Assembly: GCF_024704835.1 (NCBI RefSeq)
Contig: NZ_JAMXBE010000006.1
Location: forward strand, 124,514-188,513
DNA length: 64,000 bases
Direction: 5' to 3'
Source: Parapedobacter tibetensis
GTDB lineage: Bacteria > Bacteroidota > Bacteroidia > Sphingobacteriales > Sphingobacteriaceae
Part shown: positions 14,385 through 41,378 of the stretch, piece after piece
Layout: each line of letters begins with the position of its first letter
Position numbering within the stretch: position 1 is the stretch's first letter
The notes under the pieces: generated by a model
What the model saw: only the letters and a program-made list of their open reading frames with translations
Database searches by the model: none
What the model was told of the DNA's origin: nothing
Translations under genes and position numbers: made by a program

Positions 14385-14447
14385 TATAATTTGACTATAA
14401 AGAGATAACATATCGCGGTTTTCGGGGTTCTTTCATCTATACCTTTG
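14385..14447 (+). promoter_or_regulatory. Shared operator copy A with promoter -7 box, for the 14484 operon
   Basis: Two 11-bp direct repeats, TATAATTTGAC (14385-14395) and TATAAAGAGAT (14396-14406), run into AACATATCGC. A Bacteroidota -7 box TACCTTTG lies at 14440-14447, starting 55 bp after the operator start. The same arrangement with the same 55-bp offset occurs at 23810 and 41226. Two subsites one helical turn apart suit a dimeric AraC-type activator placed just upstream of, or over, the -33 position. No standard -33 TTG at normal spacing is seen, consistent with activator dependence. Confidence 0.8.
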
Positions 14448-14483
14448 CTTATGTAATACGGATTATAAACTTTAATAAACCAA

Positions 14484-17400
14484 ATGAGAGGGATTATCTA
14501 CTTTGCTGTTACTTGTTGCTTATTGGTGTGGAATTGTACCAACGAACGCCCAAGACGTGCCGAGGTGCTGTTTTTGAGTGGTGGTGCGCTTGAAGCTGGG
14601 CAGACGGGAAAGTACGCTACCTGGCTTGCTGTAGAACTGTTTAAGGCAGGCATCAATCTGACCTATACCGAGGACGTCAACGATTTACATGAAGATAAGC
14701 TTAACCGTTATGACGGGCTTATCATTTATGGTAGTCACGATTCGCTATCGTCATCGCAGGAAAGTGCTATGAAAGCGTTCCTGGAAAAAGGTAAGGGCAT
14801 CATTCCGATCAGTTTGGGCTCAATAGCATTCGGCAGTTCCCAGTGGTACAGCGACATTGTAGGAGGTAAGCTTACGACGCAGCAACAAGGAGCGCTGACC
14901 ATCGAGGTTATGGATACATCGTATCAGGTCACGGAGGGGGTGGCAGCTTTTGACGTGGATGAACGCTATACCTTCGAATGGGTAAACCCAGAAAATACCG
15001 TATTGTTGGAAGCTGTAGAAAATGAAACGCGCGAACCTTATGCTTGGGTGCGAACGGCAGGGCGCGGTCGTGTTTTCTTTACCCCGTTGGGAAATTCGGA
15101 GGCAACATGGAAGAATCGCAGTTTTTTGCGGTTGCTGAGAAACGGAACATTGTGGGCCGTTGGCGACAAGGTTCGCGAGTTGATCAAGCAACTAGACATC
15201 CCTGATGTAAGCATTTACCCCGATTCGATTGCCGACTTTACAGCCCGCCATGATGTGCCCAAAATGCAGGATCCATTGTCGCCCGAGGAATCTATGAAGC
15301 TCATGCAGGTACCCGTCGACTTTGAAATAAAGCTATTTGCTGCTGAGCCCGATATCGTCAATCCCATGGCTATGAGTTGGGATGAGCGAGGTCGTTTATG
15401 GATCATCGAAGCAGTAGATTACCCAAATAATTTCGTAGAGATCAAGGGGGAGAATAATGATCGGATTAAAATCTGTGAAGATACCAATGGAGATGGTGTG
15501 GCTGATAAATTCACCGTTTTTGCAGAAGGACTGAACATCGCCTCAAGCCTTACGTTTATAAATGACGGCGTGCTCGTCGCCATGGCTCCGCATTTTATCT
15601 TCCTGAAAGATACCGATGGGGATGACGTTGCGGACGTGAAGGAGACGGTGATGACCGGATGGAATAAAAATGACACCCATGCAGGCCCATCGAACCTGCA
15701 ATATGGTTTCGATAATAAAATTTGGGGAGTTACGGGATATGCTGGTTTCAATGGCGATATTAATGGCAAACGGCATACCTTTGGTCAGGGCCTGTACCAT
15801 TTTAATCCAGATGGCACTGATTTCGAGTTTCTAGCCACCACGAGCAACAATACTTGGGGACTAGGCATGACCGAAGACAACAACGTGTTTATCTCTACCG
15901 CAAACAACACGCATAGCGCGTTTTATTCGATGCCCGAAAAGCTGTTCCAACGCAAGGTAAAGGAAGGCCATCGCAGGCAACAGGTCAATGCCATACAAAA
16001 AATCGATGGGCATTATGATGTACATGCCTTAACCCCAAATCTAAGGCAGGTTGACGTGGTTGGCGGCTTTACTTCGGCAGCAGGCCATCAGCTGTACACC
16101 GCCAGGGATTATCCAGAAAGCTATTGGAATAAGGTGGCCTTTGTGACCGAGCCCACAGTGCGCTTGGTACACAATGCCCTCATAAAACCGGATGGAGCAG
16201 GTTTCAAGGAAGAAGATGGGTGGAATTTGGTGACCAGTTCAGACGAATGGTACGGGCCTATACATGCGGAGGTGGGACCTGACGGTGCCGTTTGGGTGTT
16301 AGATTGGTATAACTTCATCATCCAACATAATGTATTTGTACCTGCCCAGGCTCCATCCGAAAAGGTACTGCCCTTTACCGATCAACCTCATGGTCCCGGC
16401 AACGCATTCGAAAGTGATTTACGGGATAAAAAACATGGCCGGGTATACCGGATTGTCCATAAAAAAGGAAAGCACAAGGAACAGCATCAGCTCTCAAAAG
16501 ATAATTCAGCCGGATTGTTGAAGGCATTGAAAAGCGACAATAAATTCTGGCGCATGCATGCCCAACGGCTGCTGGTAGAGCGGCAGAAAGAAGATGTGGT
16601 GAACGACTTGGTCAACATCGCCTTGGATAAAAAAGTAGATAAGATCGGCCTGAACGCCCCAGCCATCCACGCGTTATGGACACTTCAAGGCCTCCATGTA
16701 ATCGAAACCAACAAAAAGGTATTTGATGCAGCCGTAACCTGTCTGAAACACCCTTCAGCAGGCGTGAGGAAAGCCGCTATACAGGTGTTGCCAATAAACA
16801 GTCAATCGCTTGAAGCGATTTTGGCCAGCGAGGTGTTGAAAGATGACCAATTAAACACACGTTTGGCCGCTTTTGTGCGGATGGCTGAATACCCGGCTTC
16901 CGGTACATTGGCCGGTGCGTTGTTGGCGGCTACAAACGATGCGGTCAATGAAAGTGACAGATGGTTGTCGCAGGCATTGTTCGGCGCCATCACCCAGCAC
17001 GAAGGTGCATTTCACCAAGTGACAGCACAAGGATCGCGCAATGCCTTTGCCGACCGTATTTTGGAAGCGCTAGCCGATGAGCGATATGTGCTGGGAAGGA
17101 GAACGCGGTTGCAGTTTTCTCCGGACGTGTCGAATAAGGAAATCCACATTGAAACGGAAGTCAGCAGGCGCGACAACCAACGCTACAATGGCCTTATCGT
17201 CGGCCAAGGCGATCAGAACGATGGCTATGCACTCTACCTGAAAGACGACAGGTTGTTTTTCGAAGTTTACCAGCATGGGCAGGGAACCACCGTTTCAAGC
17301 AAAGGCAGGGTGCCGAACAGCTTCACCGTCAAAGCCCAGATAACGGCAGATGCCACAGCCAAGCTGCTGGTCAACAATGTCAGCCAAGGTGAAGCAAAAA

Positions 17401-17981
17401 TCATGCATCTGTTCACCGCTCCTTTGAAGCTCTACCTGCGTAGTGGGCAGGATTTTGACGACAAATATGCGTTCACGGATTACGGAGGCTCATCGGAGTT
17501 TACCGGTAATGTAAACAACATTACGGTGAGGCTTTCAAAGGCCCATGGCGGGCACCAGCAAAGGGTAACATCCGAAGCGGATGAGACCGAGAGCACCACA
17601 CCCTCCGAGCGCATCGAGCTGAAAGCCGTGAAGGATATCATGCAATACGACAAGAAGTTGATTACCGTACAAGCCGGTAAGCGGATAACCTTGATTTTCG
17701 AAAATCCAGACGGGATGCAGCATAACTTATTGATTATCCAGCCCGGTACATTGGAGATTGTGGGTAAGGCAGCGGATGATATGTTGCGCTCCTCGGAGGC
17801 TTTTGACAAGCAATATATACCCGATATCCCAGAAGTATTGCACCACACACCGTTGGTAGACCCCGGCGAAAGCTTTACGTTGGAGTTTACAGCGCCGAAA
17901 GAGGCAGGTGATTACCCCTATGTCTGTACGTTTCCAGGGCATTGGCGAGGAATGAATGGTATTATGAGCGTTGTAAAATAA
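14484..17981 (+). CDS. Multidomain lipoprotein: ThuA, beta-propeller dehydrogenase-like, HEAT, LamG-like, cupredoxin
   Basis: The protein has 1165 residues with an N-terminal SpII-like signal (LLVWNC, Cys18). Visible order: ThuA/class-I-amidotransferase-like domain (about 25-240), PVC-type membrane-bound dehydrogenase propeller (about 270-660, with calcium-like DTNGDGVADK and DTDGDDVADV), HEAT-like helices (about 690-860), concanavalin-like DUF1080/LamG region (about 890-1030) and a type-1 copper domain (1066-1165) with all four ligands: His1080, Cys1148, His1153, Met1157. Relatives often end in a CxxCH cytochrome c; I find no CxxCH here, so the cupredoxin probably takes the electron-carrier role. 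It is likely a periplasmic sugar oxidoreductase passing electrons to a copper site. It heads an operon with ThuA, Gfo/Idh and isomerase genes. Confidence 0.82.
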   Translation: MRGIIYFAVTCCLLVWNCTNERPRRAEVLFLSGGALEAGQTGKYATWLAVELFKAGINLTYTEDVNDLHEDKLNRYDGLIIYGSHDSLSSSQESAMKAFLEKGKGIIPISLGSIAFGSSQWYSDIVGGKLTTQQQGALTIEVMDTSYQVTEGVAAFDVDERYTFEWVNPENTVLLEAVENETREPYAWVRTAGRGRVFFTPLGNSEATWKNRSFLRLLRNGTLWAVGDKVRELIKQLDIPDVSIYPDSIADFTARHDVPKMQDPLSPEESMKLMQVPVDFEIKLFAAEPDIVNPMAMSWDERGRLWIIEAVDYPNNFVEIKGENNDRIKICEDTNGDGVADKFTVFAEGLNIASSLTFINDGVLVAMAPHFIFLKDTDGDDVADVKETVMTGWNKNDTHAGPSNLQYGFDNKIWGVTGYAGFNGDINGKRHTFGQGLYHFNPDGTDFEFLATTSNNTWGLGMTEDNNVFISTANNTHSAFYSMPEKLFQRKVKEGHRRQQVNAIQKIDGHYDVHALTPNLRQVDVVGGFTSAAGHQLYTARDYPESYWNKVAFVTEPTVRLVHNALIKPDGAGFKEEDGWNLVTSSDEWYGPIHAEVGPDGAVWVLDWYNFIIQHNVFVPAQAPSEKVLPFTDQPHGPGNAFESDLRDKKHGRVYRIVHKKGKHKEQHQLSKDNSAGLLKALKSDNKFWRMHAQRLLVERQKEDVVNDLVNIALDKKVDKIGLNAPAIHALWTLQGLHVIETNKKVFDAAVTCLKHPSAGVRKAAIQVLPINSQSLEAILASEVLKDDQLNTRLAAFVRMAEYPASGTLAGALLAATNDAVNESDRWLSQALFGAITQHEGAFHQVTAQGSRNAFADRILEALADERYVLGRRTRLQFSPDVSNKEIHIETEVSRRDNQRYNGLIVGQGDQNDGYALYLKDDRLFFEVYQHGQGTTVSSKGRVPNSFTVKAQITADATAKLLVNNVSQGEAKIMHLFTAPLKLYLRSGQDFDDKYAFTDYGGSSEFTGNVNNITVRLSKAHGGHQQRVTSEADETESTTPSERIELKAVKDIMQYDKKLITVQAGKRITLIFENPDGMQHNLLIIQPGTLEIVGKAADDMLRSSEAFDKQYIPDIPEVLHHTPLVDPGESFTLEFTAPKEAGDYPYVCTFPGHWRGMNGIMSVVK

Positions 17982-18000
17982 GCATTAAAATAATTGACGA

Positions 18001-18711
18001 ATGAAGAAGGTAGCAAAATTACTAACAGGACTTGCATTAGTGTTGTCTATTGTAGGTATAGCGCTTGGTCAAACAAAGCCCATTCAAGTATTGATGGTGG
18101 GTGGGGGAGGGTCCCATGATTTTGACCGTTGGTACCGCCAGGAGGATACCAAAACACTTGAATCTACCGGTGATTTTCAGGTGCAATACACCGACCGCCC
18201 CGACTCTATCGCGATTTATTTAAAACAAGCGGATATCCTGATTCTTTCCAACAACCAGCCCATAGACGAAAAGGGTCAGGCCGCAATCACCAAATTTGTC
18301 GAAAAAGGGAACGGACTGCTGCTGTTGCATGCTGCGGTTTGGTACAACTGGGAGGACTGGCCAGCGTATAATCTAAACTACGTAGGAGGTGGCAGCAAGA
18401 GCCACGAGAAATTCCAGGCGTTCAAGAACTATGTAGTCAATCCGTCCCATCCCATCACGCAAGGTGTTCCCCAGAAATTCGAGTTTCAGGATGAGTTGTA
18501 TCGTCATGTGCCTGATTCGCAGGCAAAAGGGATAGAGGTGCTGGCCATTGGCCAATCGAAAGAAACTGATGCGGTTTATCCTGTAGTGTTTACCGTTAAA
18601 CATCGGAAGGCTAGGATCGTGGGTATCACATTGGGCCATGATGAGCATAGCCATCAGCATGAAGCGTATAAGGCATTATTAATCAACGCTGCCAAATGGG
18701 TTGCAAACTAA
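18001..18711 (+). CDS. ThuA domain-containing secreted protein
   Basis: The protein has 236 residues with a signal peptide (about 1-23, cleavage near ALGQ). It is a single ThuA-like domain: VLMVGGGGSHDF, ILILSNNQPIDEKGQAAITKFVEKGNGLLLLHAAVWYNW and GHDEHSHQHEAYKALLINAAKWV. In other bacteria ThuA proteins work in trehalose/disaccharide oxidation and occur with 3-keto-sugar genes; the exact reaction in this subgroup is not settled to my knowledge. It sits 19 bp after the large lipoprotein that carries its own ThuA domain, so the operon has two. Confidence 0.88.
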   Translation: MKKVAKLLTGLALVLSIVGIALGQTKPIQVLMVGGGGSHDFDRWYRQEDTKTLESTGDFQVQYTDRPDSIAIYLKQADILILSNNQPIDEKGQAAITKFVEKGNGLLLLHAAVWYNWEDWPAYNLNYVGGGSKSHEKFQAFKNYVVNPSHPITQGVPQKFEFQDELYRHVPDSQAKGIEVLAIGQSKETDAVYPVVFTVKHRKARIVGITLGHDEHSHQHEAYKALLINAAKWVAN

Positions 18712-18744
18712 TCAAATGGTATAATTAAGTAATAGATCAAACAC

Positions 18745-19860
18745 ATGTCAAAAATTACAGTCGTTATCGTCGGTATGGGATTTGGAAAAGAATTTATCCC
18801 AATTTATCAGAAACATCCCAACATCAAAGCAGTAGGTATTTGTACCCGTAATCAAGACACGCTCAATGACCTTAAGGCCAAGTTCAACTTAGACGAAGAC
18901 TTGCTGTTTACAGACTTCGATGAGGTGGTAAAGCGGAACGATGTCGATGCCATCCATGTCGTTACGCCCGTACCCGAACATGCGCGCATGACGTTGGCGT
19001 CATTGAACGCCAATAAGCATACAGCTTGCACGATACCCATGGCGATGACCGTAGAAGATTGCCAAGCAATCGTAGCCGCAAAACGCAAATCCGGTAAGGT
19101 ATACATGATGATGGAAACCGCATTATATACAAGGGAATTTCTGTACGGACTGAAGCTGGCCGAAACGGGGCAGTTGGGAAAAATCCAGTTTGTAAGGGGC
19201 TCACATATCCAAGATATGAGTATGGAGGGTTGGGCTGAATATTGGAAAGGTTATCCGCCCATGTTAAACGGAACACACGCCATATCACCTTTGTTGCGTA
19301 TCAACAATACGATCGCCGAGTCGGTGGTTTGCCACGGTTCAGGCAAGTTATCGGATGATTTGGCTAGCCGCTATAATGCCCCATATGCGGTGGAAACCGC
19401 TACATTCAAGCTCCGAGGCACGGATGTGGTAGCCGAGGCTACTCGTTCACTTTTCGATGTGGTGCGGCAGTACCGCGAAAGCTATGATGTCTACGGTACA
19501 AAAATGTCATTCGAATGGGAACAACTGCAAGACGAAGAGCATGTAGTCTTTGACGGCGGTGAAAATGCAAGAAGAATCAATGTGCCCGATACCGATGAGT
19601 TATTGATTCCTGAAATTGCTGATTTTACTAAGCGCGAAAAGATAGATGACCCTAACCACGTTTCGTTCCTCCAGGGAGCTGGCCACGGGGGATCGCATCC
19701 CCACTTGGTGCAGGAGTTTATCGCCGCGATTGTGGAAGGCAGGCATTCGGCTGTAGATGCCGCACTGGCGGCCAATTATACTTGCGCAGGTATATGTGCA
19801 CATGAATCGGCGATGAAAGGTGGCATCAGGGTCGATGTACCGAGTTTCGAACAACAATAA
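18745..19860 (+). CDS. Gfo/Idh/MocA-family oxidoreductase with atypical EKP motif
   Basis: The 371-residue protein has no signal peptide, so it is cytoplasmic. It has an N-terminal Rossmann fold (VIVGMGFGKEF, about 1-120) and a C-terminal Gfo/Idh/MocA sheet domain (about 130-340) with a His in NGTHAISPLL in the usual place. The canonical E-K-P, whose Lys assists hydride transfer, reads T96-I97-P98 (HTACTIPMAMT), so the usual catalytic Lys is missing. Some family branches naturally have an xxPMA version, so a different chemistry, or a redox-neutral lyase or isomerase role on 3-keto sugars, is possible. It lies between thuA and an isomerase gene (19 bp downstream). Confidence 0.88.
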   Translation: MSKITVVIVGMGFGKEFIPIYQKHPNIKAVGICTRNQDTLNDLKAKFNLDEDLLFTDFDEVVKRNDVDAIHVVTPVPEHARMTLASLNANKHTACTIPMAMTVEDCQAIVAAKRKSGKVYMMMETALYTREFLYGLKLAETGQLGKIQFVRGSHIQDMSMEGWAEYWKGYPPMLNGTHAISPLLRINNTIAESVVCHGSGKLSDDLASRYNAPYAVETATFKLRGTDVVAEATRSLFDVVRQYRESYDVYGTKMSFEWEQLQDEEHVVFDGGENARRINVPDTDELLIPEIADFTKREKIDDPNHVSFLQGAGHGGSHPHLVQEFIAAIVEGRHSAVDAALAANYTCAGICAHESAMKGGIRVDVPSFEQQ

Positions 19861-19879
19861 ATAATTTGGTTTGTCAGCG

Positions 19880-20725
19880 ATGGATATAGGAATAAGCACG
19901 TTTGTTTGGGTTTCGCCGTTTTCAAGTAAGTCCTTTGATATCTTGCATAAAGCCAAAGCGATCGGTTATGATGTGGTAGAGGTTGCAGTAGAAGACCGCG
20001 ATTTGATTGATTGGGCTGCTTTAAAGGAAATTGCGCGGGAGTTGGGATTGAAAATCACGATAAGTGGGGCGTTTGGTGTGGATCGGGATATTTCGAGCAA
20101 TCGGGCCGAAATTCGGGCAAACGGGCTTTCCTATATCGTCGACTGCTTGAACATAGCAAGCGACATGGAGAGTCCAGTTTTTGGAGGGCCACTCTATTCG
20201 GCGGTCGGTAAAACCCGGTTGGTCTCTAAAGCTGAGAAAGAACAAGAACGCCAATGGTGTTTGGAAAACTTATTTCAAGCCACCAAGCATGCAGAAGCCC
20301 TAGGGGTAATCTTGGCGTTGGAGCCGCTAAATCGATTTGAAACCGATATGGTCAATACGGTTGACCAAGCCATATCGCTGGTGGATGAGGTGGATAGTAG
20401 CCATTTGAAAATATTGCTAGATACCTTCCACAGCAATATTGAGGAGAAAAACATCCCTGCATGTATTGAGAAACTGGGGGATAGGCTGATCCACATCCAA
20501 GCCAATGAAAACGACCGTGGCACACCGGGTACGGGCCACCTGGATTGGATGGGCATCCGCAATGCACTCGATACCATCGGTTATGATGGAAGCTTAGTGA
20601 TTGAAACCTTCGGAGCCCCCTCCAAGGAGTTGGCAAGGGCAGCGAGCGTATGGAGGCCATTGGCCAATAGCGCGGATGAACTTGCCGAGGAGGGATTTGC
20701 ATTTTTGAAGGGGACATTTTGCTGA
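19880..20725 (+). CDS. Sugar phosphate isomerase/epimerase (AP-endonuclease 2-like TIM barrel)
   Basis: The protein has 281 residues from ATG 19880; a TTG nine bases earlier is open but less likely. It is a xylose-isomerase-like TIM barrel related to D-psicose/D-tagatose 3-epimerases and inosose isomerases. The metal-site residues are in place: Glu148 (ALEPLNRFE), Asp181 (LLDTFHSNIEE), His205 (HIQANENDRGTPG) and Glu242 (VIETFG). It has no signal peptide, so it is cytoplasmic. It follows the oxidoreductase by 19 bp, suggesting that the two act in sequence on an imported keto-sugar. Confidence 0.9.
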   Translation: MDIGISTFVWVSPFSSKSFDILHKAKAIGYDVVEVAVEDRDLIDWAALKEIARELGLKITISGAFGVDRDISSNRAEIRANGLSYIVDCLNIASDMESPVFGGPLYSAVGKTRLVSKAEKEQERQWCLENLFQATKHAEALGVILALEPLNRFETDMVNTVDQAISLVDEVDSSHLKILLDTFHSNIEEKNIPACIEKLGDRLIHIQANENDRGTPGTGHLDWMGIRNALDTIGYDGSLVIETFGAPSKELARAASVWRPLANSADELAEEGFAFLKGTFC

Positions 20726-20731
20726 TGAATT

Positions 20732-20820
20732 GAACACAGATGACGCTGATTATGCGGATTGATACAGATAACAATTAAACACATCCGCGAACGTCAGTAC
20801 GATCCGTGTTATCTGTGTTC
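20732..20820. repeat. Intergenic inverted repeat
   Basis: The perfect outer arms GAACACAGAT (20732-20741) and ATCTGTGTTC (20811-20820) enclose weaker inner arms (GCGGAT / ATCCGC and ATAAC). It fills most of the 132-bp gap between the isomerase and the MFS gene. Elements with ACACAGAT/ATCTGTGT ends are a familiar dispersed intergenic type in Bacteroidota; no second copy is seen here. Confidence 0.6.
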
Positions 20821-20857
20821 TATAATATTTTAACAATAAATCGTTATCGCTCAAATT

Positions 20858-22402
20858 ATGAACTCCACCACGTTACAAACCGCCAATCCTTCATCACCTA
20901 GTAAGCGACTTTTCTGGGGATGTTTCATTGTGTTGGTTGCATCCGCATTCGGATTTGTTTTCCGTGCATACCTTATGCCCGAGTGGGGCGTCCGGTTCGA
21001 TTTGAGCAAAACCCAGCAAGGGCAAATCTTTGGTGTAAGTTTCTGGCCATTTGCATTGAGTATTGTGCTGTTTAGCTTGGTAATTGACAAGATAGGCTAT
21101 AAGAAGTCCATGATTTTTGCTTTTCTGTGCCATGGGGCCTCCGTTATATTGACGGTATTCGCTACGGGATATTGGATGCTCTATTTTGGCACGTTCCTAT
21201 TTGCCCTGGGAAACGGGGCTGCCGAAGCGGTGATCAATCCCGTGGTTGCTTCCATGTATCCAAAAGAGAAAACAAAATGGCTCAATATTCTCCATGCAGG
21301 TTGGCCGCTGGGGATTGCGTTGGCCGGTCTTTTGGGAATTACCTTATTGCATTTCCAGATCGATTGGAAAATAATGATGCTTTTTATCCTCCTGCCGACT
21401 ATCGCCTATGGGGTACTTATTGTGAAAGAAAAATTTCCATTAAATGAGCGTGTTAAGGCCGGCGTGGGTTATTTGGATATGCTCAAGGAAGTTGGCGTGT
21501 TGGGCTTTCTGATTGTCATCAGTTTGTGTGCTTTTGAGTTAGGCAATCTTTTTGGTTGGTCGGCAATGGTGAGCGTGGCATTGATCGTGGTGATCATTGG
21601 TTTCATCGGCTTTTACCTCCGTACACTTGGCAGGCCATTGCTTGTGCTCCTGCTGCTCATTATGGTTCCGCTGGCAACAATGGAGCTTGGTACGGACAGT
21701 TGGATTACCGATCTCATGACACCCGAAATGAAGAAATTGGGTTTCCAAGGCGGATGGGTGTTGGTATTCACGGCCGTTATCATGGGTATACTGCGGTTGT
21801 ATACCGGAGTGGTCACCAAGCGGATTTCGCCACTGGGAATCTTAGCGATAAGTGCGCTTATTTCCGCCGTTGGCTTGCAGTGGTTGTCCATATCGACCGG
21901 ATATGCTATCCTGCTAGCCGCATTATGTTATGCACTGGGAAAAACCTACCTATGGGGTACCATGTTGGGCGTGGTATCCGAGCAATTTCCTAAAGGTGGG
22001 GCATTGGCATTGAATTTTACCAGTGCAGTAGGGCAGTTGGGTGTAGGTATCATAGGTGCTGTATTTTTAGGGTCTATCCAAGATAGCGAAATCGATTCAA
22101 AACTACACGTCTACGATATGGAAAATAGCACCGCTTATCATAAGAACTATGTGACGGAGACCAAACGGAGTATTTTCGGAGAATATAAGGCATTGGATCA
22201 GGAGAAATTGGCTGTTGCCGATGAGGAAACGCTAGCGGTAATCACCGAAGTGGAAAACCAATCCAAGAAATCCGCATTGTCCACGGTTTCCATATTACCG
22301 GTCTTTATGTTTTTATTTTTCGTCGCATTAATCATCTACTTCAGGTTAAAGGGAGGGTATAAGCCGGTTGTTCTTGAAGATGCGCCAAGCAGCACGCATT
22401 AG
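20858..22402 (+). CDS. MFS transporter
   Basis: The 514-residue inner-membrane protein has about 12 hydrophobic segments (for example LFWGCFIVLVASAFGFVF, IVLFSLVIDKIGYKKSMIF with the MFS loop, YFGTFLFALGNGAAEAVI, LGVGIIGAVFLGSI, VSILPVFMFLFFVALIIY). A soluble acidic stretch (about 410-470) lies before the last segment. It presumably imports the sugar or sugar acid released in the periplasm for the Gfo/Idh and isomerase enzymes encoded just upstream. It sits after a 132-bp gap holding an inverted repeat, so part of its expression may differ from the upstream genes. Confidence 0.92.
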   Translation: MNSTTLQTANPSSPSKRLFWGCFIVLVASAFGFVFRAYLMPEWGVRFDLSKTQQGQIFGVSFWPFALSIVLFSLVIDKIGYKKSMIFAFLCHGASVILTVFATGYWMLYFGTFLFALGNGAAEAVINPVVASMYPKEKTKWLNILHAGWPLGIALAGLLGITLLHFQIDWKIMMLFILLPTIAYGVLIVKEKFPLNERVKAGVGYLDMLKEVGVLGFLIVISLCAFELGNLFGWSAMVSVALIVVIIGFIGFYLRTLGRPLLVLLLLIMVPLATMELGTDSWITDLMTPEMKKLGFQGGWVLVFTAVIMGILRLYTGVVTKRISPLGILAISALISAVGLQWLSISTGYAILLAALCYALGKTYLWGTMLGVVSEQFPKGGALALNFTSAVGQLGVGIIGAVFLGSIQDSEIDSKLHVYDMENSTAYHKNYVTETKRSIFGEYKALDQEKLAVADEETLAVITEVENQSKKSALSTVSILPVFMFLFFVALIIYFRLKGGYKPVVLEDAPSSTH

Positions 22403-22450
22403 CATAAGCGGCCAATAAATACGATTATAACTAATTAAAGCCACCGAATT

Positions 22451-23761: not shown

Positions 23762-23809
23762 ACAGGAATTATTATGCCTTAAATTATATTTGTTTTTATA
23801 TTATTATGG

Positions 23810-23872
23810 TATAATTTGACTATAACCAGATAAGATAGCACCTATTTTGCCTTGAATTATGCCCTAGCTTTG
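23810..23872 (+). promoter_or_regulatory. Shared operator copy B with promoter -7 box, for the 24045 PUL
   Basis: Direct repeats TATAATTTGAC (23810-23820) and TATAACCAGAT (23821-23831) are followed by AAGATAGC. The -7 box TAGCTTTG is at 23865-23872, 55 bp from the operator start, exactly as in copies A and C. B and C also share TTTGCCTT between operator and -7 box. The leader from here to the susC start is about 170 nt. Confidence 0.8.
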
Positions 23873-29210: not shown

Positions 29211-29276
29211 ATGAGACCTGCATGAATTGCCATTCGCGAAAGAATATGATTAATTCATACAAGCTTCATTGCCATA
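29211..29276 (+). repeat. Intergenic hairpin element R2 (between susD and DUF3823 gene)
   Basis: This second copy of the 66-bp element has arms GCATGAATT (29220-29228) and AATTCATAC (29252-29260). Against R1, the G-to-A change in the left arm is matched by C-to-T in the right arm, which keeps a base pair; one other pair is lost. The outer stem is also kept through a G-U wobble (ATGAG/TTCAT). This change pattern is expected of a functional RNA hairpin rather than a simple DNA repeat. Confidence 0.7.
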
Positions 29277-29293
29277 AAAAACAAATTACGCTG

Positions 29294-29968: not shown

Positions 29969-29977
29969 TTGTATGCT

Positions 29978-30010
29978 ATGAAACCCGCAAGAGCTACTGC
30001 TCTTTCGCCA
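29978..30010 (+). repeat. Degenerate hairpin element R3
   Basis: It starts ATGAAACCCGCAAGAG, matching the beginning of R1 (ATGAAACCTGCATGAG), just after the DUF3823 gene. A perfect local hairpin AAGAGC-TACT-GCTCTT (29989-30004) takes the place of the longer stem. The similarity then stops, and the sequence runs into the sulfatase remnant. Confidence 0.45.
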
Positions 30011-30084
30011 AGGTGCTGAAAAGTGCCGGGTATGCGATAGGGCATTTCGGAAAGTCTCCACTAAGAGGGGAGCCAATTAAATGA
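30001..30084 (+). pseudogene. Sulfatase gene remnant
   Basis: The open frame reads SFAKVLKSAGYAIGHFGKS and then SPLRGEPIK before a stop at 30082-30084. Bases 30007-30055 match 38494-38542 inside the intact sulfatase gene with 46 of 49 positions identical, where the protein reads IAKVLKSAGYATGHFGKWH. There is no start and no catalytic Cys segment, so it is a fragment. It forms a direct repeat with the intact gene on either side of the 30242-37925 block. Confidence 0.75.
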
Positions 30085-30241
30085 GTTCATAGTTAAATAC
30101 CATGTCAAGGGTATCATGAAGCTCATGTCCGATTGGATCTTCACGGATATGCCAAATTATCGTGGCGTCAAGGCCCGCTCTGTAGTTGGCGGCTACATTA
30201 AAAAATGTTAGCGGACAAACTTTAACCAATAATCATATTAT
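30085..30241. other. Unassigned sequence after sulfatase remnant, possibly decayed coding
   Basis: Both strands hold about 40 codons without a stop. The plus strand, ending in a stop near 30210, reads through KGIMKLMSDWIFTDMPNYRG. The minus strand reads through AGLDATIIWHIREDPIGHEL and ends NYELI-stop near 30086. Neither has a credible start or a family I recognise. It may be the 3' end of a lost gene. The last 30 bp before 30242 are an AT-rich leader of the IPT/NHL gene. Confidence 0.35.
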
Positions 30242-31714: not shown

Positions 31715-31719
31715 AGGAC

Positions 31720-34700: not shown

Positions 34701-34860
34701 GAACAGGATAAAGACCAATAACATTCGTGTTTTTCTGGTCGGCAGCAATCTGCTTACCTGGTCAAAATTCAAGCTTTGGGATCCAGAATTGGCCAGTCCG
34801 AGAGGAGAAGACTACCCCCTACCTAAATCAGTCACATTAGGCATCAGTGTTAACCTATAA
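31720..34860 (+). CDS. SusC-family TonB-dependent outer-membrane transporter
   Basis: The protein has about 1046 residues. The start is ATG 31720 or 31723, not the GTG at 31711 that overlaps the previous stop; an AAGGA at 31714-31718 supports 31723. It has a signal peptide (about 1-20), a CarboxypepD_reg-like domain (VTGVVVDANKAPLIGVNIAV onward), TonB-box-like DEVVVTGTGT, a plug (FSVLKDAAVTAIYGSRGANGV) and a barrel ending VTLGISVNL, where a terminal Leu replaces the more usual Phe. The SusD partner follows after 11 bp. Confidence 0.94.
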   Translation: MMNRFLLTCMLLLRITFSALAQEIVEVTGVVVDANKAPLIGVNIAVTDAPGLGTVTDNKGNYKINVERYKKLTFSYVGFQKQEVLVKDNLVIDVTLQESETSVLDEVVVTGTGTQKRLTLTGAVTTVNVDDLKSNPTSSLSNALAGNVPGVLAMMQSGQPGRNISEFWIRGISTFGGGTGALVLVDNIERDLNEINIEDIESFSVLKDAAVTAIYGSRGANGVILITTKRGKEGKININFKDETIYNTRTITPEFEDGVTYANLLNESRITRNREPIYQPEELEILRLGLDPDLYPNVDWQDLLLKDGAMTYRANLNLSGGGATARYFASGSYVDEGGMYKTDETLRNDYNTNANYRRWNYRLNTDINITKTTVAKVGVAGSLSKRNSPGLGDTDFWGVLFGYSPIRTPVVYSNGYVPAVGTGNQTNPWVVATQTGFNENWTNNIQTNISVEQNFDFITKGLRGRGIFGFDTNNSSNIQRRKWPEQWRAERARDENGELVFSHVAAPSEMHQASSSGGDRREFLDMMFNYDRSVGDHNLGGVARFTRDAFVRTVAIGDDIKNGISRRNQALAGRATYSWKYRYFADFNFGYTGSENFARGQQYGFFPAFSFAWNVSEEQFIKDRVQWINMFKIRYSWGRVGNDQLGGGERFPYLYTIEEIWRRDGDGNLVLDDGGNRIPEGGYQWADYGYNRYFGGMRYAQVASPYVTWEIATKQNLGFDIALFRDQIIANLDFFNEERTGIYMERQFLPAIVGLESTPRANVGAVRSRGFDGRFEYKQQLGAVNLTARSNITYSKNVILEKDEENNVYAYQNEEGFRVDQAKGLVALGLFKDYDDIRNSPTQTFGPYQPGDIKYKDINGDGVINDGDRVPIGATRRPNLIYGIGASASWKGLDINIHFQGAGKSTFSIYGKTVYAFSEGEWGQVMKGMMGENRWIAADISGDPATENPNASYPRLSFGENPNNFRESTYWLRNGQYLRLKTVDIGYTLPKYLANRIKTNNIRVFLVGSNLLTWSKFKLWDPELASPRGEDYPLPKSVTLGISVNL

Positions 34861-34871
34861 ATTGAAAAGCG

Positions 34872-36926
34872 ATGCAAAAGAAGATATATTTTGTGCTATT
34901 GCTTGTGCTCGGCACAGGCATCCTTTCTTCCTGTAAAAAAAATTACCTGGAATCCGACCAATATTTCAAAGACCGGCTCACTATTGAGAAAGTATTTAAA
35001 AGCAAGGTCTATACAGAACAGTGGCTGGCTCACGTATACGAGGAATTCAAAGGCATCAATGCTGATGTGGCAAGCAAGGGCCTTACGCCGCATAATTTTG
35101 CTGACGATATGTATTACGGCGACAGGGACAGGGATTATGATCCATCGAAGAACGAGCTTTCATACAACATGTTCAAAATGGGCCAATATACCGAGAACGA
35201 CAAACAAGGCACTTGGACACAGTGCTACCGGGGAATACGCAATGCGACGACTTTCATTCATAACGTATATATGAACACTGAAATGACGCCTGTCGAAATA
35301 GAAGACTACAGGGGGCAGGCTCGTTTTGCGAGGGCTTACCTATACTGGCTACTACTGCGTAAATACGGCCCGATCCCGCTACTGCCCGATGAGGGATTAG
35401 ACTATACGGAAAGTTATGACGATCTAGCCACGGCACGCAGTACCTACGAAGAATGTGCAGCATATATAGGCAACGAGATGTTGCTTGCCGCGCAAGAAAT
35501 GGAAACACTGGGGATGACGCGTGGTCAGGATGGTTCTGCCCGCCCTACTTGCGGGGCCGCACTGGCTACCCGCGCCAAGGCGTTGCTCTATGCAGCAAGT
35601 CCGCTGGCCAATGGAAATACATCGAGCTTTGCCGCAAGGCTGACCGACGATGCGGGGAAACACCTGCTTTCTGCCGACTATCAGGAGGAGAAATGGGCTA
35701 AAGCCGCCGCCGCCGCCAGGGATGTAATCGAACTCGGCGTATACCAACTTTATTGGGTGCCTCTTCAGGAAACCGGTGAGGATGCTACGGTTATACCACC
35801 GAAAGACAACAATTTTTCAGAAAAAAGTTGGCCAGAAGGTTGGGCAAATATTGACCCCGCCAGATCATATGCCCAGGTATTTGATGGCACGCTGCAACCC
35901 TCCGGAAACCCGGAACTGATATTTACCAGGAGCAACAATCAAGGTGGAGAAAGCATCAGCGCTATGGTTGCCCACCAGTTGCCACGTTCGGCCACCGGCT
36001 GGAATACCCATGGATTGACTCAAAAATTGATTGACGCATACTACTTAAACGACGGGAAAGATGCGCCTGGTAAAGATAAAGAAATCGGACGGGGAGATGG
36101 TTCAGAACGCGTAAGCGGTTATGTAACCCAAGCGGATCATGACGCCAGCAAATACAGGCCCTTGAGAGCAGGTGTTTCGTTGCAATATGCAAACCGCGAA
36201 CCCCGCTTCTATGCCTCTGTAGCTTACAACGGTAGTTTTTGGACCTTGCTAAATGAGACCCAGGAACGTAATCGTAACCAACAGGTATTCTATTACCGCG
36301 ATGACAACAAGGGCAACGGATTCAACTCTTCCAATGCTTACTGGTTACGTACAGGTTTCGGCGTGAAGAAATTTGTTCATCCGAGTGATACCTACGAGGG
36401 GGGAAGTATGTCCCGTATCGTACCAAAAGCTGAACCGGCAATCCGCTATGCCGATATCCTGCTTGCCTATGCAGAGGCGCTGAATGAACTTGACGGCTCC
36501 TACAGCATCCCATCATGGCGTGGTGAAAATTATTCCATCAATCGCGACATAACCCAAATGCAACGAGGCATCCACCCTGTCCGTATCCGCGCTGGAGTGC
36601 CCGACTATCCAGCTAACGTGTACAGCAACAAGGACGAGTTAAGAAAAACATTGAAGCGAGAACGTTTCATAGAGCTTATGGGTGAAGGGCAGCGCTATTA
36701 CGACTTACGCCGTTGGATGGATGCGCCTGTAGAAGAGGCATTGCCGGTCTATGGTTGTAATGTGCTAATGAATGGAAATGAGCGGGACCTTTTCCATCAG
36801 CCTATAGCCGTGTGGGCGCTCAAATCCACCTTTGCTGATAAGATGTGGTTTTGGCCCATCAGTCATAGCGAGCTTAAACGCAACAAACGCCTTACCCAAA
36901 ACCCCGGATGGACTTATAACGATTAA
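34872..36926 (+). CDS. SusD/RagB-family surface glycan-binding lipoprotein
   Basis: At 684 residues it is long for the family because of insertions in the middle (about 290-470). It has an SpII signal (GILSSC, then KKNYLESDQYF), GQARFARAYLYWLLLRKYGP as the SusD helical signature, and C-terminal RYADILLAYAEALNELDG and RERFIELMGEGQRYYDLRRW. It binds the ligand imported by the SusC encoded just before it and precedes a DUF4973-like lipoprotein gene by 15 bp. Confidence 0.94.
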   Translation: MQKKIYFVLLLVLGTGILSSCKKNYLESDQYFKDRLTIEKVFKSKVYTEQWLAHVYEEFKGINADVASKGLTPHNFADDMYYGDRDRDYDPSKNELSYNMFKMGQYTENDKQGTWTQCYRGIRNATTFIHNVYMNTEMTPVEIEDYRGQARFARAYLYWLLLRKYGPIPLLPDEGLDYTESYDDLATARSTYEECAAYIGNEMLLAAQEMETLGMTRGQDGSARPTCGAALATRAKALLYAASPLANGNTSSFAARLTDDAGKHLLSADYQEEKWAKAAAAARDVIELGVYQLYWVPLQETGEDATVIPPKDNNFSEKSWPEGWANIDPARSYAQVFDGTLQPSGNPELIFTRSNNQGGESISAMVAHQLPRSATGWNTHGLTQKLIDAYYLNDGKDAPGKDKEIGRGDGSERVSGYVTQADHDASKYRPLRAGVSLQYANREPRFYASVAYNGSFWTLLNETQERNRNQQVFYYRDDNKGNGFNSSNAYWLRTGFGVKKFVHPSDTYEGGSMSRIVPKAEPAIRYADILLAYAEALNELDGSYSIPSWRGENYSINRDITQMQRGIHPVRIRAGVPDYPANVYSNKDELRKTLKRERFIELMGEGQRYYDLRRWMDAPVEEALPVYGCNVLMNGNERDLFHQPIAVWALKSTFADKMWFWPISHSELKRNKRLTQNPGWTYND

Positions 36927-36941
36927 TAAAATATGCATCAT

Positions 36942-37925
36942 ATGAACAAGTCATATATACAGTTATTTCTGCTCTCGCTGCTAATCATCTGCGGCTCGTG
37001 CAATGACGAATGGAAAGATGAACAGTTTGAAAATTTTGTTTCATTTAAAGCGCCTTTAGCAAACGAAGGGGTATCTGATATCTATATTCGTTACAAGGGT
37101 GATGAGAAGACCACTTTCCAACAGCCTTTAATAGTTAGTGGATCTACCACAATTGATAAAAACATGATGGTACATGTTGCCGTAGATTCCGATACCTTGA
37201 ATGTGCTGAACTACGAACGCTTCCAGAACCGCGAAGACTTTTATTACAGGGAGTTGAACAGTGCGTATTTCGCTATCCCCGCTATTATAGATATTAAGGC
37301 TGGGGAAAGCACCGCATTAATGGCAATCGATTTTACACTTAAAAATATCGACATGACAGATAAGTGGGTGCTTCCTTTAACCATTCTGGATGACCCCTCC
37401 TATAATTACAAGGCGAATCCCCGGAAACACTACCGGAAAGCGCTCTTACGTATTAACCCCTTCAATGACTACTCGGGCACTTACAGCGGCACCGCATTGA
37501 AAATAAGTATGGAAGGCTACGAAAATGAAACCCCTATTGTTAAAAGTGAGATCCGGAGCTATGTCGTAGATGAAAATACCATTTTCTTCTATGCAGGAAA
37601 TATAGATGAAGAGCGGCAAGATCGCCGCAACTATAAAATCTATGCGACCTTCAACGAAACCGGTGGGGTAAGCTTCCGGGCCGATAATCCTGACATGAAG
37701 TTTACGGTTAACAGAGATGCCAGTTATACGGTCACCGAGCAGATGGACGCCGTCCGCCCCTATCTACTACACCGCTATATAACCATCAATAACATTGATT
37801 ACCAATTTACGGACTATACCATGGTTCCCAATGTTGATATTAACTATAAGGTTTCAGGATCGTTGATTTTAGAACGTCAATTAAATACCCAGATTCCTGA
37901 CGAAGACCAGGCCATAGAATGGTAG
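36942..37925 (+). CDS. DUF4973/DUF1735-like surface lipoprotein
   Basis: The protein has 327 residues from ATG 36942, which gives an immediate SpII signal (LLIICGSC, then NDEWKDEQFENFVSFKAP); an ATG nine bases earlier is also in frame. The N-terminal beta-sandwich (VSFKAPLANEGVSDIYIRY to LPLTILDDPSYNYKANPRKHYRKALL) resembles DUF1735, and the C-terminal half resembles a lipocalin-like DUF4973 part. It stands where SusE-type proteins stand in a PUL, so surface glycan binding is likely. A strong hairpin follows at 37932. Confidence 0.75.
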   Translation: MNKSYIQLFLLSLLIICGSCNDEWKDEQFENFVSFKAPLANEGVSDIYIRYKGDEKTTFQQPLIVSGSTTIDKNMMVHVAVDSDTLNVLNYERFQNREDFYYRELNSAYFAIPAIIDIKAGESTALMAIDFTLKNIDMTDKWVLPLTILDDPSYNYKANPRKHYRKALLRINPFNDYSGTYSGTALKISMEGYENETPIVKSEIRSYVVDENTIFFYAGNIDEERQDRRNYKIYATFNETGGVSFRADNPDMKFTVNRDASYTVTEQMDAVRPYLLHRYITINNIDYQFTDYTMVPNVDINYKVSGSLILERQLNTQIPDEDQAIEW

Positions 37926-37931
37926 GTCGCT

Positions 37932-37980
37932 CCTTTTGCCAATGCCTACACTCCCACCTGAGTTGGGCTTTGGCAGAAGG
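37932..37980 (+). terminator. Hairpin after DUF4973-like gene, possible terminator or attenuator
   Basis: CCTTTTGCCAA (37932-37942) pairs with TTGGCAGAAGG (37970-37980) over 11 positions with one G-U pair, and an inner CCCA/TGGG pair can form. It starts 6 bp after the stop codon. No T-run follows. It separates the SusCD block from the two sulfatase genes, so sulfatase expression may be reduced relative to the transporter. Confidence 0.55.
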
Positions 37981-38100
37981 GCTGCCTTATTCAACGCTAA
38001 CGGCAGGTGTTGAGTGAAATTGCTACATTTGATTGGAGGCAGAAACGAGCAGATTTGGTAATTGGATAAAATTTGACTGAGAAGAAGCGACGAGTATTTG

Positions 38101-39525
38101 ATGAATAATTTAAAAAGATGGAATAGAACTATGAAGATTGTGAAAACCATTGTGAAAGGTCTGTTCTTGATCGGATTACTGATACGAAGTCCCGTTTCTT
38201 GGGGCCAGGAGCAGCCCAATATTATTGTGATCCTGACCGACGATATGGGTTTCAGCGATATTGGGACATTCGGCGGGGATTTTGTGCCCACACCGCGAAT
38301 CGACAGCTTTGCAACCGAAGGTACCCGGTTTACCCAATACTACAGCGCTTCCCCCATTTGCAGCCCGTCCCGCGCAAGTATCCTGACCGGCATGTTCCCG
38401 GCCGAATGGAATTTTACCACTTTCCTTAACAATAGGCGGAGCAACGAGCTGGCTGAACAAGCCAATTACCTTAATGTACATGCACCGTCCATCGCCAAGG
38501 TGCTGAAAAGTGCCGGCTATGCGACGGGGCATTTCGGAAAGTGGCATATGGGAGGCGGACGGGATATTAAAAATGCGCCAAAGTTTGAAAAATACGGGTT
38601 TGACGAACACGCCGGTACGTACGAGAGTCCTGAGCCGGATCCGTTGCTGACCGCTACGGATTGGATATGGTCCGATCAGGACAGCGTAAAGCGCTGGGAT
38701 AGGACCGCCTATTTTGTGGATAAGACGCTGGACTTTTTGCGACGGCATCGGGGTACACCCTGTTTTGTGAACCTATGGCCGGATGATATGCATACTCCGT
38801 GGGTGCCGGAGGTAAACCAGCGGCAGCAAGGGAAGTTTCCTATGAATCCCGAGGAAGAGGTCGCTTTCAAGCTTGTTCTGGCTGAATTAGATAAACAGTT
38901 AGGGCGCTTGTTTGACGGATTGGTCGAGCTGGGTATTGCCGAAAATACCCTCGTGATTTTTACCAGCGACAATGGCCCGTTGCCCAGTTTCCGTGGCAGC
39001 CGAGCGGGAGGGTTGCGGGGCACCAAACTCTCCCTGTACGAAGGGGGAATACGGATGCCATTCATCGTCCGCTGGCCCGGCCGGGTGCGTGCAGGTGCGA
39101 CGGATAGTGTCTCTGTGCTGAACTCGACCGATCTCTTTCCTACGTTGGCCGGCATCGCATCAGCGTCGCTACCTGCCAACTATAAAGGTGATGGCGAAGA
39201 TCGGGCAGCTGTATGGTTGGGTACGCCCGCTTCACGGGCCAAAGACATGTACTGGGAGTATGGCAGAAATGACCATGCCTTTAATTATCCGCGGGGGAAA
39301 GACCGAAGCCCCAATCTGGCCATCCGGTCGGGAAAGTGGAAGTTGCTTATCGACTATCACAAGAATAACCCCGAGTTGTATGACATGGAACGGGATCGCT
39401 ATGAAAGGATTAATTTGGCCGACGCGCATCCGGATATTGTCAAGGATCTACGGACAAGGCTCATCACATGGCGCACTTACCTGCCGGAGCTGACCACTGG
39501 CCGGGCAAATCCGGCGGTCGATTGA
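38101..39525 (+). CDS. Cys-type sulfatase (S1 family), secreted
   Basis: The protein has 474 residues from ATG 38101. A later ATG at 38131 gives a cleaner signal peptide (MKIVKTIVKGLFLIGLLI, cleavage near SWGQ) and may be the true start. Family features: metal ligands NIIVILTDDMG, the formylglycine signature CSPSR within ICSPSRASILTG (Cys87 in the longer form), GHFGKWHMGG and FTSDNGP. The Cys needs conversion to formylglycine by a maturase that is not in this window. It probably desulfates a glycan in the periplasm. A 49-bp internal segment is also found at 30007. Confidence 0.93.
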   Translation: MNNLKRWNRTMKIVKTIVKGLFLIGLLIRSPVSWGQEQPNIIVILTDDMGFSDIGTFGGDFVPTPRIDSFATEGTRFTQYYSASPICSPSRASILTGMFPAEWNFTTFLNNRRSNELAEQANYLNVHAPSIAKVLKSAGYATGHFGKWHMGGGRDIKNAPKFEKYGFDEHAGTYESPEPDPLLTATDWIWSDQDSVKRWDRTAYFVDKTLDFLRRHRGTPCFVNLWPDDMHTPWVPEVNQRQQGKFPMNPEEEVAFKLVLAELDKQLGRLFDGLVELGIAENTLVIFTSDNGPLPSFRGSRAGGLRGTKLSLYEGGIRMPFIVRWPGRVRAGATDSVSVLNSTDLFPTLAGIASASLPANYKGDGEDRAAVWLGTPASRAKDMYWEYGRNDHAFNYPRGKDRSPNLAIRSGKWKLLIDYHKNNPELYDMERDRYERINLADAHPDIVKDLRTRLITWRTYLPELTTGRANPAVD

Positions 39526-39650
39526 TGTTAAAGGACGTTATGAGAGGAAATTAAGAACATCATGAGAGTTGGCTTATAATAGATGATGATTTTACAGGCT
39601 AAGTGAAAGTCGGTTTGAATTGGAGTTACTTAAATATTTAGATTAGCATC

Positions 39651-41030
39651 ATGAAAAAGTATTTTTATCTTGTGTTAACGGTAACACCAATGCTTCTCAT
39701 TGGCACTGCCGCATCGGCCCAGTTGTCGGAGAAACCCAACATCATCCTCATCATGGCGGACGATTTGGATTCGCGTCAGCTGAGTTGCTATGGGGGCGAA
39801 AACCTGGAAACCACACATATCGATCAGCTGGCTTCCGAAGGGCTGAAATTCAATGCGATGATCGCTTCCGAAGCGATGTGTATACCTACAAGGGCATCGT
39901 TGCTCACGGGATTGTACCCAGTGAGACATGGTGCTTACCAGAACCATAAGCCCGTGTACAACGACTTAAAAAGTGTCGTACACTACCTTAATGATCTGGG
40001 CTACCGGGTTGGGCTTACAGGAAAGGATCACATGACGAAACCGAGGGCTGTTTTTCCCTTTGACCGGGTGGATGGCTTTGAACCGAACTGCGTGGCATCG
40101 ACGGATGAATATTTTTTGGATAGTGTGAGGAACTATGTTCAAGGTGAGGAGCCCTATTGCCTGTTTGTGATGAGCATCAACCCGCATACGCCGTGGAGCG
40201 TGGGCAACCCGGATGAGTTTGATCCAGACAAACTCAAGCTGCCGGCACACTGGGTGGATACCGAACTGACAAGAAGCGAATTTCGGAAATACCTCGCAGA
40301 AGTACGCCGGTTGGATGATCAGGTCGGCGATATCATGAACCTGCTCAAGGAGACCGGCGTGGAGGAAAACACGATGGTTATTTTTCTGGGTGAGCAGGGG
40401 CCGCAGTTCCCGGGCGGGAAGTGGACCCTGTATGACAACGGGCAGAAGAGCTCCATGATCGTCAAATGGCCGGGAATGGTGAAGCCAGCCACAGAAACCG
40501 ATGCCATCGTTCAGTATGAAGATATCACTCCCACCTTGATCGATATTGTGGGCGGAGATCCTATAGAGGGGTTGAATGGATATAGCTTTAAACAAGTGCT
40601 GGTGGGAAAAAGCGCGGAGCATCGGGATGTAGCCTATGGCATTCATAACAACATTCCCGAAGGCCCTGCTTATCCGATCCGCAGTATTCGGGATAATAAG
40701 TTTAAACTGGTCTGGAACCTCCTGCCTGATTCGGCTTATTACATCAAATACAGTATGAATACCGCAAATACGCGTCTGGCTTGGACCACGTGGGTGAACC
40801 AAGCATCGCATGACGATCATGCAAAAGCGCTAACGGAGCGGATCGTACACAAGCCGGAAATTGAGTTTTACGATATCACAAAGGATCCCGACGAACTTGA
40901 AAATTTAGCCAGCCAGCCCGAATACGACACGTTGATTCAAAACTACAAGAACCGATTGAAGGAATGGATGGAAGCACAGGGGGATGAAGGGGCTGCTTTG
41001 GATGTACCTATCAAACGCAATAAAACATAG
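39651..41030 (+). CDS. Cys-type sulfatase (heparan N-sulfatase-like subgroup), secreted
   Basis: The protein has 459 residues with a signal peptide (about 1-23, AASAQ). It has metal-site IILIMADDLD, signature CIPTRASLLTG with Cys77 for formylglycine, and TGKDHM. The usual SDNG metal motif is replaced by LGEQGPQFPGGKW, seen to my recollection in SGSH/heparan-N-sulfatase-like branches. It is probably a periplasmic exo-sulfatase on a sulfated sugar or amino sugar. It lies 125 bp after the previous sulfatase gene and ends block 5. Confidence 0.9.
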   Translation: MKKYFYLVLTVTPMLLIGTAASAQLSEKPNIILIMADDLDSRQLSCYGGENLETTHIDQLASEGLKFNAMIASEAMCIPTRASLLTGLYPVRHGAYQNHKPVYNDLKSVVHYLNDLGYRVGLTGKDHMTKPRAVFPFDRVDGFEPNCVASTDEYFLDSVRNYVQGEEPYCLFVMSINPHTPWSVGNPDEFDPDKLKLPAHWVDTELTRSEFRKYLAEVRRLDDQVGDIMNLLKETGVEENTMVIFLGEQGPQFPGGKWTLYDNGQKSSMIVKWPGMVKPATETDAIVQYEDITPTLIDIVGGDPIEGLNGYSFKQVLVGKSAEHRDVAYGIHNNIPEGPAYPIRSIRDNKFKLVWNLLPDSAYYIKYSMNTANTRLAWTTWVNQASHDDHAKALTERIVHKPEIEFYDITKDPDELENLASQPEYDTLIQNYKNRLKEWMEAQGDEGAALDVPIKRNKT

Positions 41031-41378
41031 CCATGTGATGTGTACGGTAAATTGGTAGCTGCGTGTGGCATTATGAGTGGTGGCGTAAGGGCTCGGCGTC
41101 TCCGTATGAACAGGGGACGCGAAAATTTCAAAGCACCGAAAGAATGGAAGATTCTGGAAGAAGAATAGCGAAATAGCTTTCTTCTGAATTTATCAGTTAT
41201 TGAAGGTTAATTGCATTATTAATGATATAATATACCTATAAAGGGATAATATATCGCCGCTTTGCCTTCGTTTTCTTACCTAGTTTTGTGGTAAGGACAA
41301 TTATTAACCGCTTATATTCTGTTTTCTTGTCAATTGTGCGGTAGCCATATTGGATCGTTAGCGATGTTATTCTTCTAG
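41031..41378. other. Intergenic region with hairpin and possible coding remnant
   Basis: No intact gene is seen in these 348 bp. A hairpin GCGTCTCC (41096-41103) / GGGGACGC (41113-41120) may end the sulfatase transcript. From 41070 to 41165 the plus strand reads protein-like in two frames: HYEWWRKGSASPYEQGTRKF, then, after a one-base shift, KAPKEWKILEEE and a stop at 41166-41168. This suggests the decayed C-terminus of an unrecognised protein. The right half holds operator copy C (41226-41288) and the leader of the sigma-factor gene. Confidence 0.45.
41226..41288 (+). promoter_or_regulatory. Shared operator copy C with promoter -7 box, for the ECF sigma operon
   Basis: Direct repeats TATAATATACC (41226-41236) and TATAAAGGGAT (41237-41247) are followed by AATATATCGCC. 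The -7 box TAGTTTTG is at 41281-41288, again 55 bp from the operator start. It shares GATAAnATATCGC with copy A and TTTGCCTT with copy B. It implies that the sigma/anti-sigma genes are themselves switched on by the regulator of the other two operons. Confidence 0.8.

Follow-up and report, generated by a model that had tools for sequence, protein, structure and literature searches.

Class II operators of AraC-family regulators are direct repeats with a period of about 21 bp. In Escherichia coli, AraC uses sites with a 21-bp spacing that overlap the -35 element, and its gene is divergent. AraC at araI1-araI2 is the closest working model for the system described here (PMC4760080). Nearer in phylogeny, an analysis like ours was used to predict the operators of RhaR and of hybrid two-component systems (HTCS) in Bacteroides, and the RhaR and FucR regulons are each described as a single target operon for transport and cytoplasmic enzymes (PMC3878776). 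For HTCS, 16-bp sites spaced by 5 bp or 12-bp sites spaced by 9 bp are given, both of which have a period of 21 by arithmetic, and another of 14 bp with 6, by the same arithmetic a period of 20 (PMC3878776; PMC11253607). The -7 consensus of Bacteroidota promoters is given, again in an excerpt, as TANNTTTGY (PMC12632263). Here we describe an operator in a 64,000-nucleotide stretch of Parapedobacter tibetensis (contig NZ_JAMXBE010000006.1, positions 124,514 to 188,513; the window below). It stands at a fixed distance before the promoters of three operons, and we consider it very likely that the product of the adjacent araC gene acts through it as a class II activator of one regulon. The elements that carry this reading are as follows.

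13443-14345, minus strand: AraC/XylS-family regulator of 300 aa, with Pfam matches to a cupin-like N-terminus and an AraC-type helix-turn-helix (HTH)
14366-14373, minus strand: predicted araC -7 box, TAnnTTTG-like with 1 mismatch, 11 bp from the operator core
14383-14412, plus strand: operator 1, a 21-bp direct repeat of GATATAATT (14383-14391) and GATAACATA (14404-14412); its conserved extension, on the same strand, reaches 14422
14440-14447, plus strand: -7 box TACCTTTG, offset 55 from the first TATAAT
23808-23837, plus strand: operator 2, GGTATAATT (23808-23816) and GATAAGATA (23829-23837)
23865-23872, plus strand: -7 box TAGCTTTG, offset 55
41224-41253, plus strand: operator 3, GATATAATA (41224-41232) and GATAATATA (41245-41253)
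41281-41288, plus strand: -7 box TAGTTTTG, offset 55

The original prediction had placed three shared sites at 14385, 23810 and 41226, within leaders that otherwise differ, and both points were borne out. Allowing up to 3 mismatches, TATAATNTRMCTATAANNRGATAANATA, the 28-base pattern common to the sites, matched the window at these three places and none of 100 shuffles, and it matched the whole genome (5.98 Mb) three times, compared to 0 for a reversed-pattern control. A covariance model (R1), which uses sequence only, includes the -7 columns and was built from 24 sites (12 from the core pattern, the others from a core position weight matrix [PWM] or from their position beside araC), scored the window sites at 51.7, 46.5 and 41.0 bits and the next-best place in the genome at 14.6, so that a genome-wide motif search returns these three sites only. 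Between the three sites, pairwise identity is 73 to 87% in the core and 75 to 88% in the -7 box, compared to 28 to 51% in the flanks and 29 to 47% in the 17-bp spacer that leads to the -7 box. Given this weak likeness outside the conserved blocks, the three do not look like recent copies of one promoter. A further PWM match at 35163 (score 19.5) was discounted; it lies inside susD3, and no box follows at +55.

The structure of the operator was read from 33 sites, which are not independent: 23 lie beside araC, and most of these are orthologous. Some weak later sites among them were chosen by position and core score, and those of genomes G338, G279 and G008 (locus L182) were found with R1. Left out were L111, a near copy of L103; L187, L188, L189 and L193, whose sites are those of L107, L106, L110 and L108; two weak matches in L192; the match in G358; four class-wide matches; and nine 3-mismatch pattern matches away from this araC. 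The 33 sites describe a 21-bp direct repeat, GATAyAATw and GATAAnATA with N12 between them. The operator matches itself best at 21 bp among spacings of 9 to 29, with a similarity of 12.37 that was reached by 2 of 2,000 column permutations. The 11-bp direct repeats proposed originally must give way to this register, as they score 7.66, below the permutation 95% level of 9.41; a 19-bp register, at 8.64, also falls short of that level. Of the 33 sites, 30 conserve the form G.TA..AT in the first repeat and 25 in the second. All 33 sites have G at columns -1 and 20, the former a column unused in site finding, and a TTT at columns 36 to 38 (gap 17) is conserved across sites.

The helical placement of the operator with respect to the core promoter is constant. 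The exact 55-bp offset of the original prediction holds at each of the three window sites, with boxes at 14440, 23865 and 41281, each counted from the first base of the first TATAAT, and each an exact match to the TAnnTTTG expected of a -7 element for the Bacteroidota primary sigma factor. Of the 33 sites, 27 have TAnnTTTG at offset 55 when 1 mismatch is allowed and 18 have it exactly, compared to a mean of 0.36 sites (maximum, 5) at the other offsets from 28 to 109; of the 10 sites away from araC, 8 have the box at 55 on the 1-mismatch criterion. The repeat ends 27 bp and its TTT-ending extension 17 bp before the -7 box, which places a direct repeat of 21-bp period alongside or on top of the upstream promoter element. 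The gap to TTTG that is usual for the genus is 19 to 20, as found in 17 of 161 intergenic TAnnTTTG boxes and in 1 of 69 controls (∼0.7 Mb of Parapedobacter sequence). A -33 TTTG at gaps of 17 to 25 was found at none of the 33 sites.

The adjacent regulator fits such an operator. Its HTH matches HTH_18 (E=1.1e-19) and HTH_AraC (2.2e-13) well above the curated cutoffs of PF12833 (70.9 versus 33.6 bits) and PF00165 (50.4 versus 26.6). The N-terminus passes the cutoff for AraC_binding (8.2e-05; 22.8 versus 21.1 bits) and falls just under that for Cupin_2 (3.5e-06; 27.1 versus 27.2). The HTCS architecture, with periplasmic sensor, kinase, receiver and HTH in one chain, was not found in this protein. 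Among 27 AraC orthologs the DNA-binding domain is more conserved than the N-terminus (0.74 versus 0.65), which is weak support, because conservation is skewed likewise in 18 paralogs (0.45 versus 0.33). The araC gene is divergent from target operon 1, and on its side of the operator a TAnnTTTG-like box (at most 1 mismatch) stands 11 bp away at 7 of 7 Parapedobacter araC sites. In total, 10 of the 23 sites next to araC have such a box, and none of the 10 others does. At this distance the operator occupies the expected place of the araC -33 element. Bound AraC would thus cover the -33 region of its own promoter, and autoregulation, probably with repression as the outcome, is predicted.

The coupling of operator and regulator extends over several genera. 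The closest relatives of this AraC are in six named Parapedobacter species (85 to 92% identity), and the operator lies upstream of the araC ortholog in these six and in Mucilaginibacter, Pedobacter, Sphingobacterium, Hufsiella and Membranihabitans. The upstream regions of 20 of 53 AraC loci were inspected, and 16 of them, down to 55% AraC identity, carry the operator (Parapedobacter, Mucilaginibacter, Membranihabitans, Pedobacter, Sphingobacterium and one Sphingobacteriaceae metagenome-assembled genome). In G032, two sites lie close to the nearer-related araC copy, the first adjoining the gene and the second before SusC2. A scan of 200 genomes (our own plus 199 relatives) with a pattern drawn from the three window sites alone gave 23 matches with at most 3 mismatches in 18 genomes. 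Thirteen of these, in 8 genomes, had at most 2 mismatches, and this AraC is present in all 8 genomes at E<=1e-90. The remaining 10 matches, with 3 mismatches, all fall outside the genus, and one (G029) is beside araC. Within the genus there were 12 true-pattern matches compared to 0 for the reversed control. Genus members G001 and G002 have no AraC at E<=1e-90 and no site either.

Among 301 family genomes, ours included, 15 have the site (model match at E<=0.001), 19 the AraC (E<=1e-90) and 14 both (Fisher p=4e-19). Because the model was partly trained on 12 of these genomes, three of which were assigned to named loci through identical sites, the test was repeated without them; 3 genomes had both, 1 the site only, 4 the AraC only and 281 neither (p=3.5e-5). 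Five genomes have the AraC and no model match. By core score beside araC, a site is visible in G100 and G328, degenerate in G018 and G307, and not convincing anywhere in G362. Of 22 AraC loci, 16 show a clear operator no more than 300 bp upstream, 2 have a site 4 to 8 kb away before a target gene, 3 have a degenerate site and 1 has none that convinces. A class-wide search gave weak matches (21.6 to 22.5 bits) in 4 of 394 other genomes; their 3-kb loci hold no open reading frame (ORF) matching a window protein, and we took them as chance.

Membranihabitans maritimus lies outside the Sphingobacteriaceae. In this species (L102), the araC ortholog (73%), the operator, SusC2, SusD2 and sulfatases stand together, a regulator-operator-transporter set that looks like the product of horizontal transfer.

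The genes downstream of the three operators, several of them in polysaccharide utilization loci (PULs), are as follows; operon limits are predicted.

14484-23662, plus strand: target operon 1, six genes, downstream of operator 1
24045-41030, plus strand: target operon 2, SusC2, SusD2, DUF3823, TIG protein, SusC3, SusD3, DUF4973 and two sulfatases
41379-43112, plus strand: first part of target operon 3, extracytoplasmic function (ECF) sigma factor and FecR-type anti-sigma factor
43307-55775, plus strand: remainder of the ECF-linked PUL, SusC4 (STN domain), SusD4, sulfatase, glycoside hydrolase (GH) family 92 protein, esterase and GH43 protein

Operon 1 encodes a ThuA-DUF7133-cupredoxin protein (NCBIfam PVC-type heme-binding family), a ThuA protein, a GFO/IDH/MocA oxidoreductase, a TIM-barrel epimerase/isomerase-like protein, an MFS transporter and an enolase-superfamily dehydratase-like protein, a content that suggests an oxidative route for the released sugar. 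The ECF-linked PUL also encodes one protein without a Pfam match, between the esterase and GH43. The sulfatases, GH43, GH92 and a GH5-like gene in the neighborhood suggest a sulfated, arabinose- or mannose-containing glycan as the substrate.

Three further observations concern this neighborhood. The gene for SusC4, an STN-type TonB receptor, is read as two overlapping frames (43307-44428 and 44418-46706; break near 44391-44407), compared to a single 1,130-aa frame in G007, so that it is either a pseudogene or a sequencing error. Between fecR and susC4, a CCGGAG...CTCCGG inverted repeat (43134-43157), seen by eye also in G004 and G007, is a possible attenuator or terminator. At the start of the window (3-3834), the genes of a sensor histidine kinase and a response regulator overlap but are distinct, unlike the single fused gene of an HTCS, and they are in separate frames in G004 and G007 too.

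Relatives place the operator before the same kinds of genes. Each of the 10 sites that do not adjoin araC stands before a gene for glycan use or before the ECF gene of a PUL of this kind. Three precede SusC2 (window, G032, G068), two the ECF gene (window, G004), two sulfatase genes (G004, G008), two GH43 genes (G004, G008) and one DUF7133 (G032). The claim that the three operons form one regulon gains support from these recurrences before SusC2 and the ECF gene, and in relatives the regulon extends to GH43 and further sulfatase genes. G008 (L182) has an extra operator before a sulfatase gene on another contig, and the regulon may reach beyond the cluster. Genes without an operator of their own have short upstream gaps in a collinear cluster (gaps measured from longest-ORF starts). 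The gap before SusC2 is 383 bp with the operator, compared to 47 to 149 bp in six species without it; before the ECF gene, 349 and 245 bp compared to 115 bp; and before the second GH43 gene, 191 and 89 bp compared to 7 to 24 bp. Sulf1 is preceded by ∼4.3 kb of other sequence where it has the operator (G004), compared to 8 (G006), 73 (G007) and 173 bp (window) where it does not. We infer that short-gap genes are served by read-through.

These comparisons support a single regulon with the adjacent AraC as its regulator, as the original prediction had proposed. An AraC dimer would bind the two repeats and cover the place of the usual -33 element. A sugar released by glycan breakdown would bind its cupin-like domain, and sugar-bound AraC would recruit RNA polymerase to three promoters that have no normally spaced -33 element, with transcription starts predicted from their -7 boxes. 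The outputs would be the oxidative sugar-catabolism operon, the double SusCD/sulfatase PUL and the ECF-sigma/FecR/SusC sulfatase PUL.

Several results weigh against this account. Among the 20 upstream regions inspected, those of L109 and of three relatives of 39 to 41% identity (L112-L114) have no operator, and several AraC orthologs of ∼49 to 56% identity have degenerate sites only, and one has none. In the 200-genome scan, matches with at most 3 mismatches were not enriched outside the genus (11, compared to ∼39 for the reversed control); loose matches there are meaningless alone, and the case rests on better matches and on position. The only site without this AraC, in G358, is a weak partial 22-bit match beside an AraC of 31% identity. 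At six of the 33 sites no good box stands at offset 55: in G008 (L182) the box is at 56, and the other five have at least 2 mismatches at 55. The G007 ECF gene has no operator of its own, and the gap argument is soft, because a longer gap is partly needed to house the operator. TTTG occurs at gaps of 14 to 16 in 8 of 33 sites (15 at window site 2, 16 at site 3) which, together with the conserved TTT at gap 17, makes a shifted -33-like contact possible. Hence, of the earlier statement that the operator replaces the -33 element, the absence of a canonical element stands and replacement itself is likely. The G358 match (L176) may in its own right reflect a deeper conservation of the operator type, or chance.

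AraC-family members can repress, and AraC might bind the same three sites as a repressor that the sugar relieves. Such a role would suit the overlap between the operator and the -33 region of the promoter from which araC is divergently transcribed; at the three operons, a repeat that ends 27 bp (its extension, 17 bp) before the -7 box at fixed spacing, with no TTTG at the usual gap, is what a class II activator is expected to show, and we regard repression of the operons as unlikely. It is quite unlikely that a different protein binds the operator, be it the ECF sigma factor, a paralog of AraC or the response regulator encoded next to the histidine kinase. Candidates exist: the C-terminus of the response regulator reads by eye as an AraC-type HTH, relatives of it and the kinase occur near araC in G004 and G007, and our genome has 6 AraC-like matches at E<=1e-20, this AraC included. 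Against the two-component pair, the operator adjoins the araC ortholog in genera whose fetched loci (5 to 40 kb) show no homolog of that kinase. The operator is also intact in G003, G005 and G006, whose 120-kb regions contain no close ECF homolog, the one in G005 being only 28% identical and ∼55 kb from araC. As for the paralogs, the three sites share one contig, and three other AraC paralogs listed for the genome are on other contigs.

That the conserved blocks are not an operator at all, being AT-rich promoter DNA of the UP-element kind or a copied promoter segment, is highly improbable. The core is indeed AT-rich, yet an UP element would not account for G at columns -1 and 20 in every one of the 33 sites, for the 21-bp repeat, or for the presence of this AraC in 14 of 15 genomes with a model match; and a copied segment does not fit spacers and flanks that are only 28 to 51% identical between the window sites. 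Activation by AraC as a class II regulator remains our preferred reading.

If so, the most unusual part of the regulon, and one that appears new, would be the layering of AraC over the ECF/FecR/SusC switch. We offer, tentatively and at somewhat less than even chances, a two-layer gate. A cytoplasmic AraC-type sugar sensor would sit above a trans-envelope switch of ECF sigma factor, FecR and STN-type SusC, so that sensing of a breakdown product inside licenses sensing of the polymer at the outer membrane. It would act via promoters without a normally spaced -33 element, in a 55-bp geometry that has persisted across genera and is set up again at new operons as clusters break up. The layering is seen at one window operator and its counterpart in G004. 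The operator and regulon themselves also appear new, within a mechanism of a familiar type; no description of either was recognized in the open-licence literature searched, some of it in partial listings. To our knowledge, few PUL regulators with known sites exist among the Sphingobacteriaceae relatives of Parapedobacter, and the present set of regulator, operator, promoter geometry and targets defines a testable regulon for them. The related promoters that lack a normally spaced -33 element offer material on how activators act with the unusual primary sigma factor of Bacteroidota, and the locus suggests that an ECF-controlled PUL can come under a one-component sugar sensor.

Compared with known systems, the locus shares with E. 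coli AraC a regulator of the AraC/XylS family, a direct repeat of 21-bp period just upstream of the promoter, a regulator gene divergent from a target operon, and targets in sugar catabolism; unlike that system, it has promoters of the Bacteroidota -7/-33 type and at least three target operons, which include PULs and an ECF sigma gene. The regulator resembles Bacteroides RhaR (BT3768), an AraC-family rhamnose regulator, in controlling sugar use in Bacteroidota through an operator predicted by comparative genomics (PMC3878776), and differs from it in a regulon that spans more than one operon and includes SusCD, sulfatases and an ECF sigma factor. With the Bacteroides HTCS it shares the AraC-type DNA-binding domain and direct-repeat operators before PULs (PMC3878776; PMC11253607), but those regulators are membrane sensors fused to kinase and receiver, whereas the AraC described here is a 300-aa chain of cupin-like domain and HTH only.

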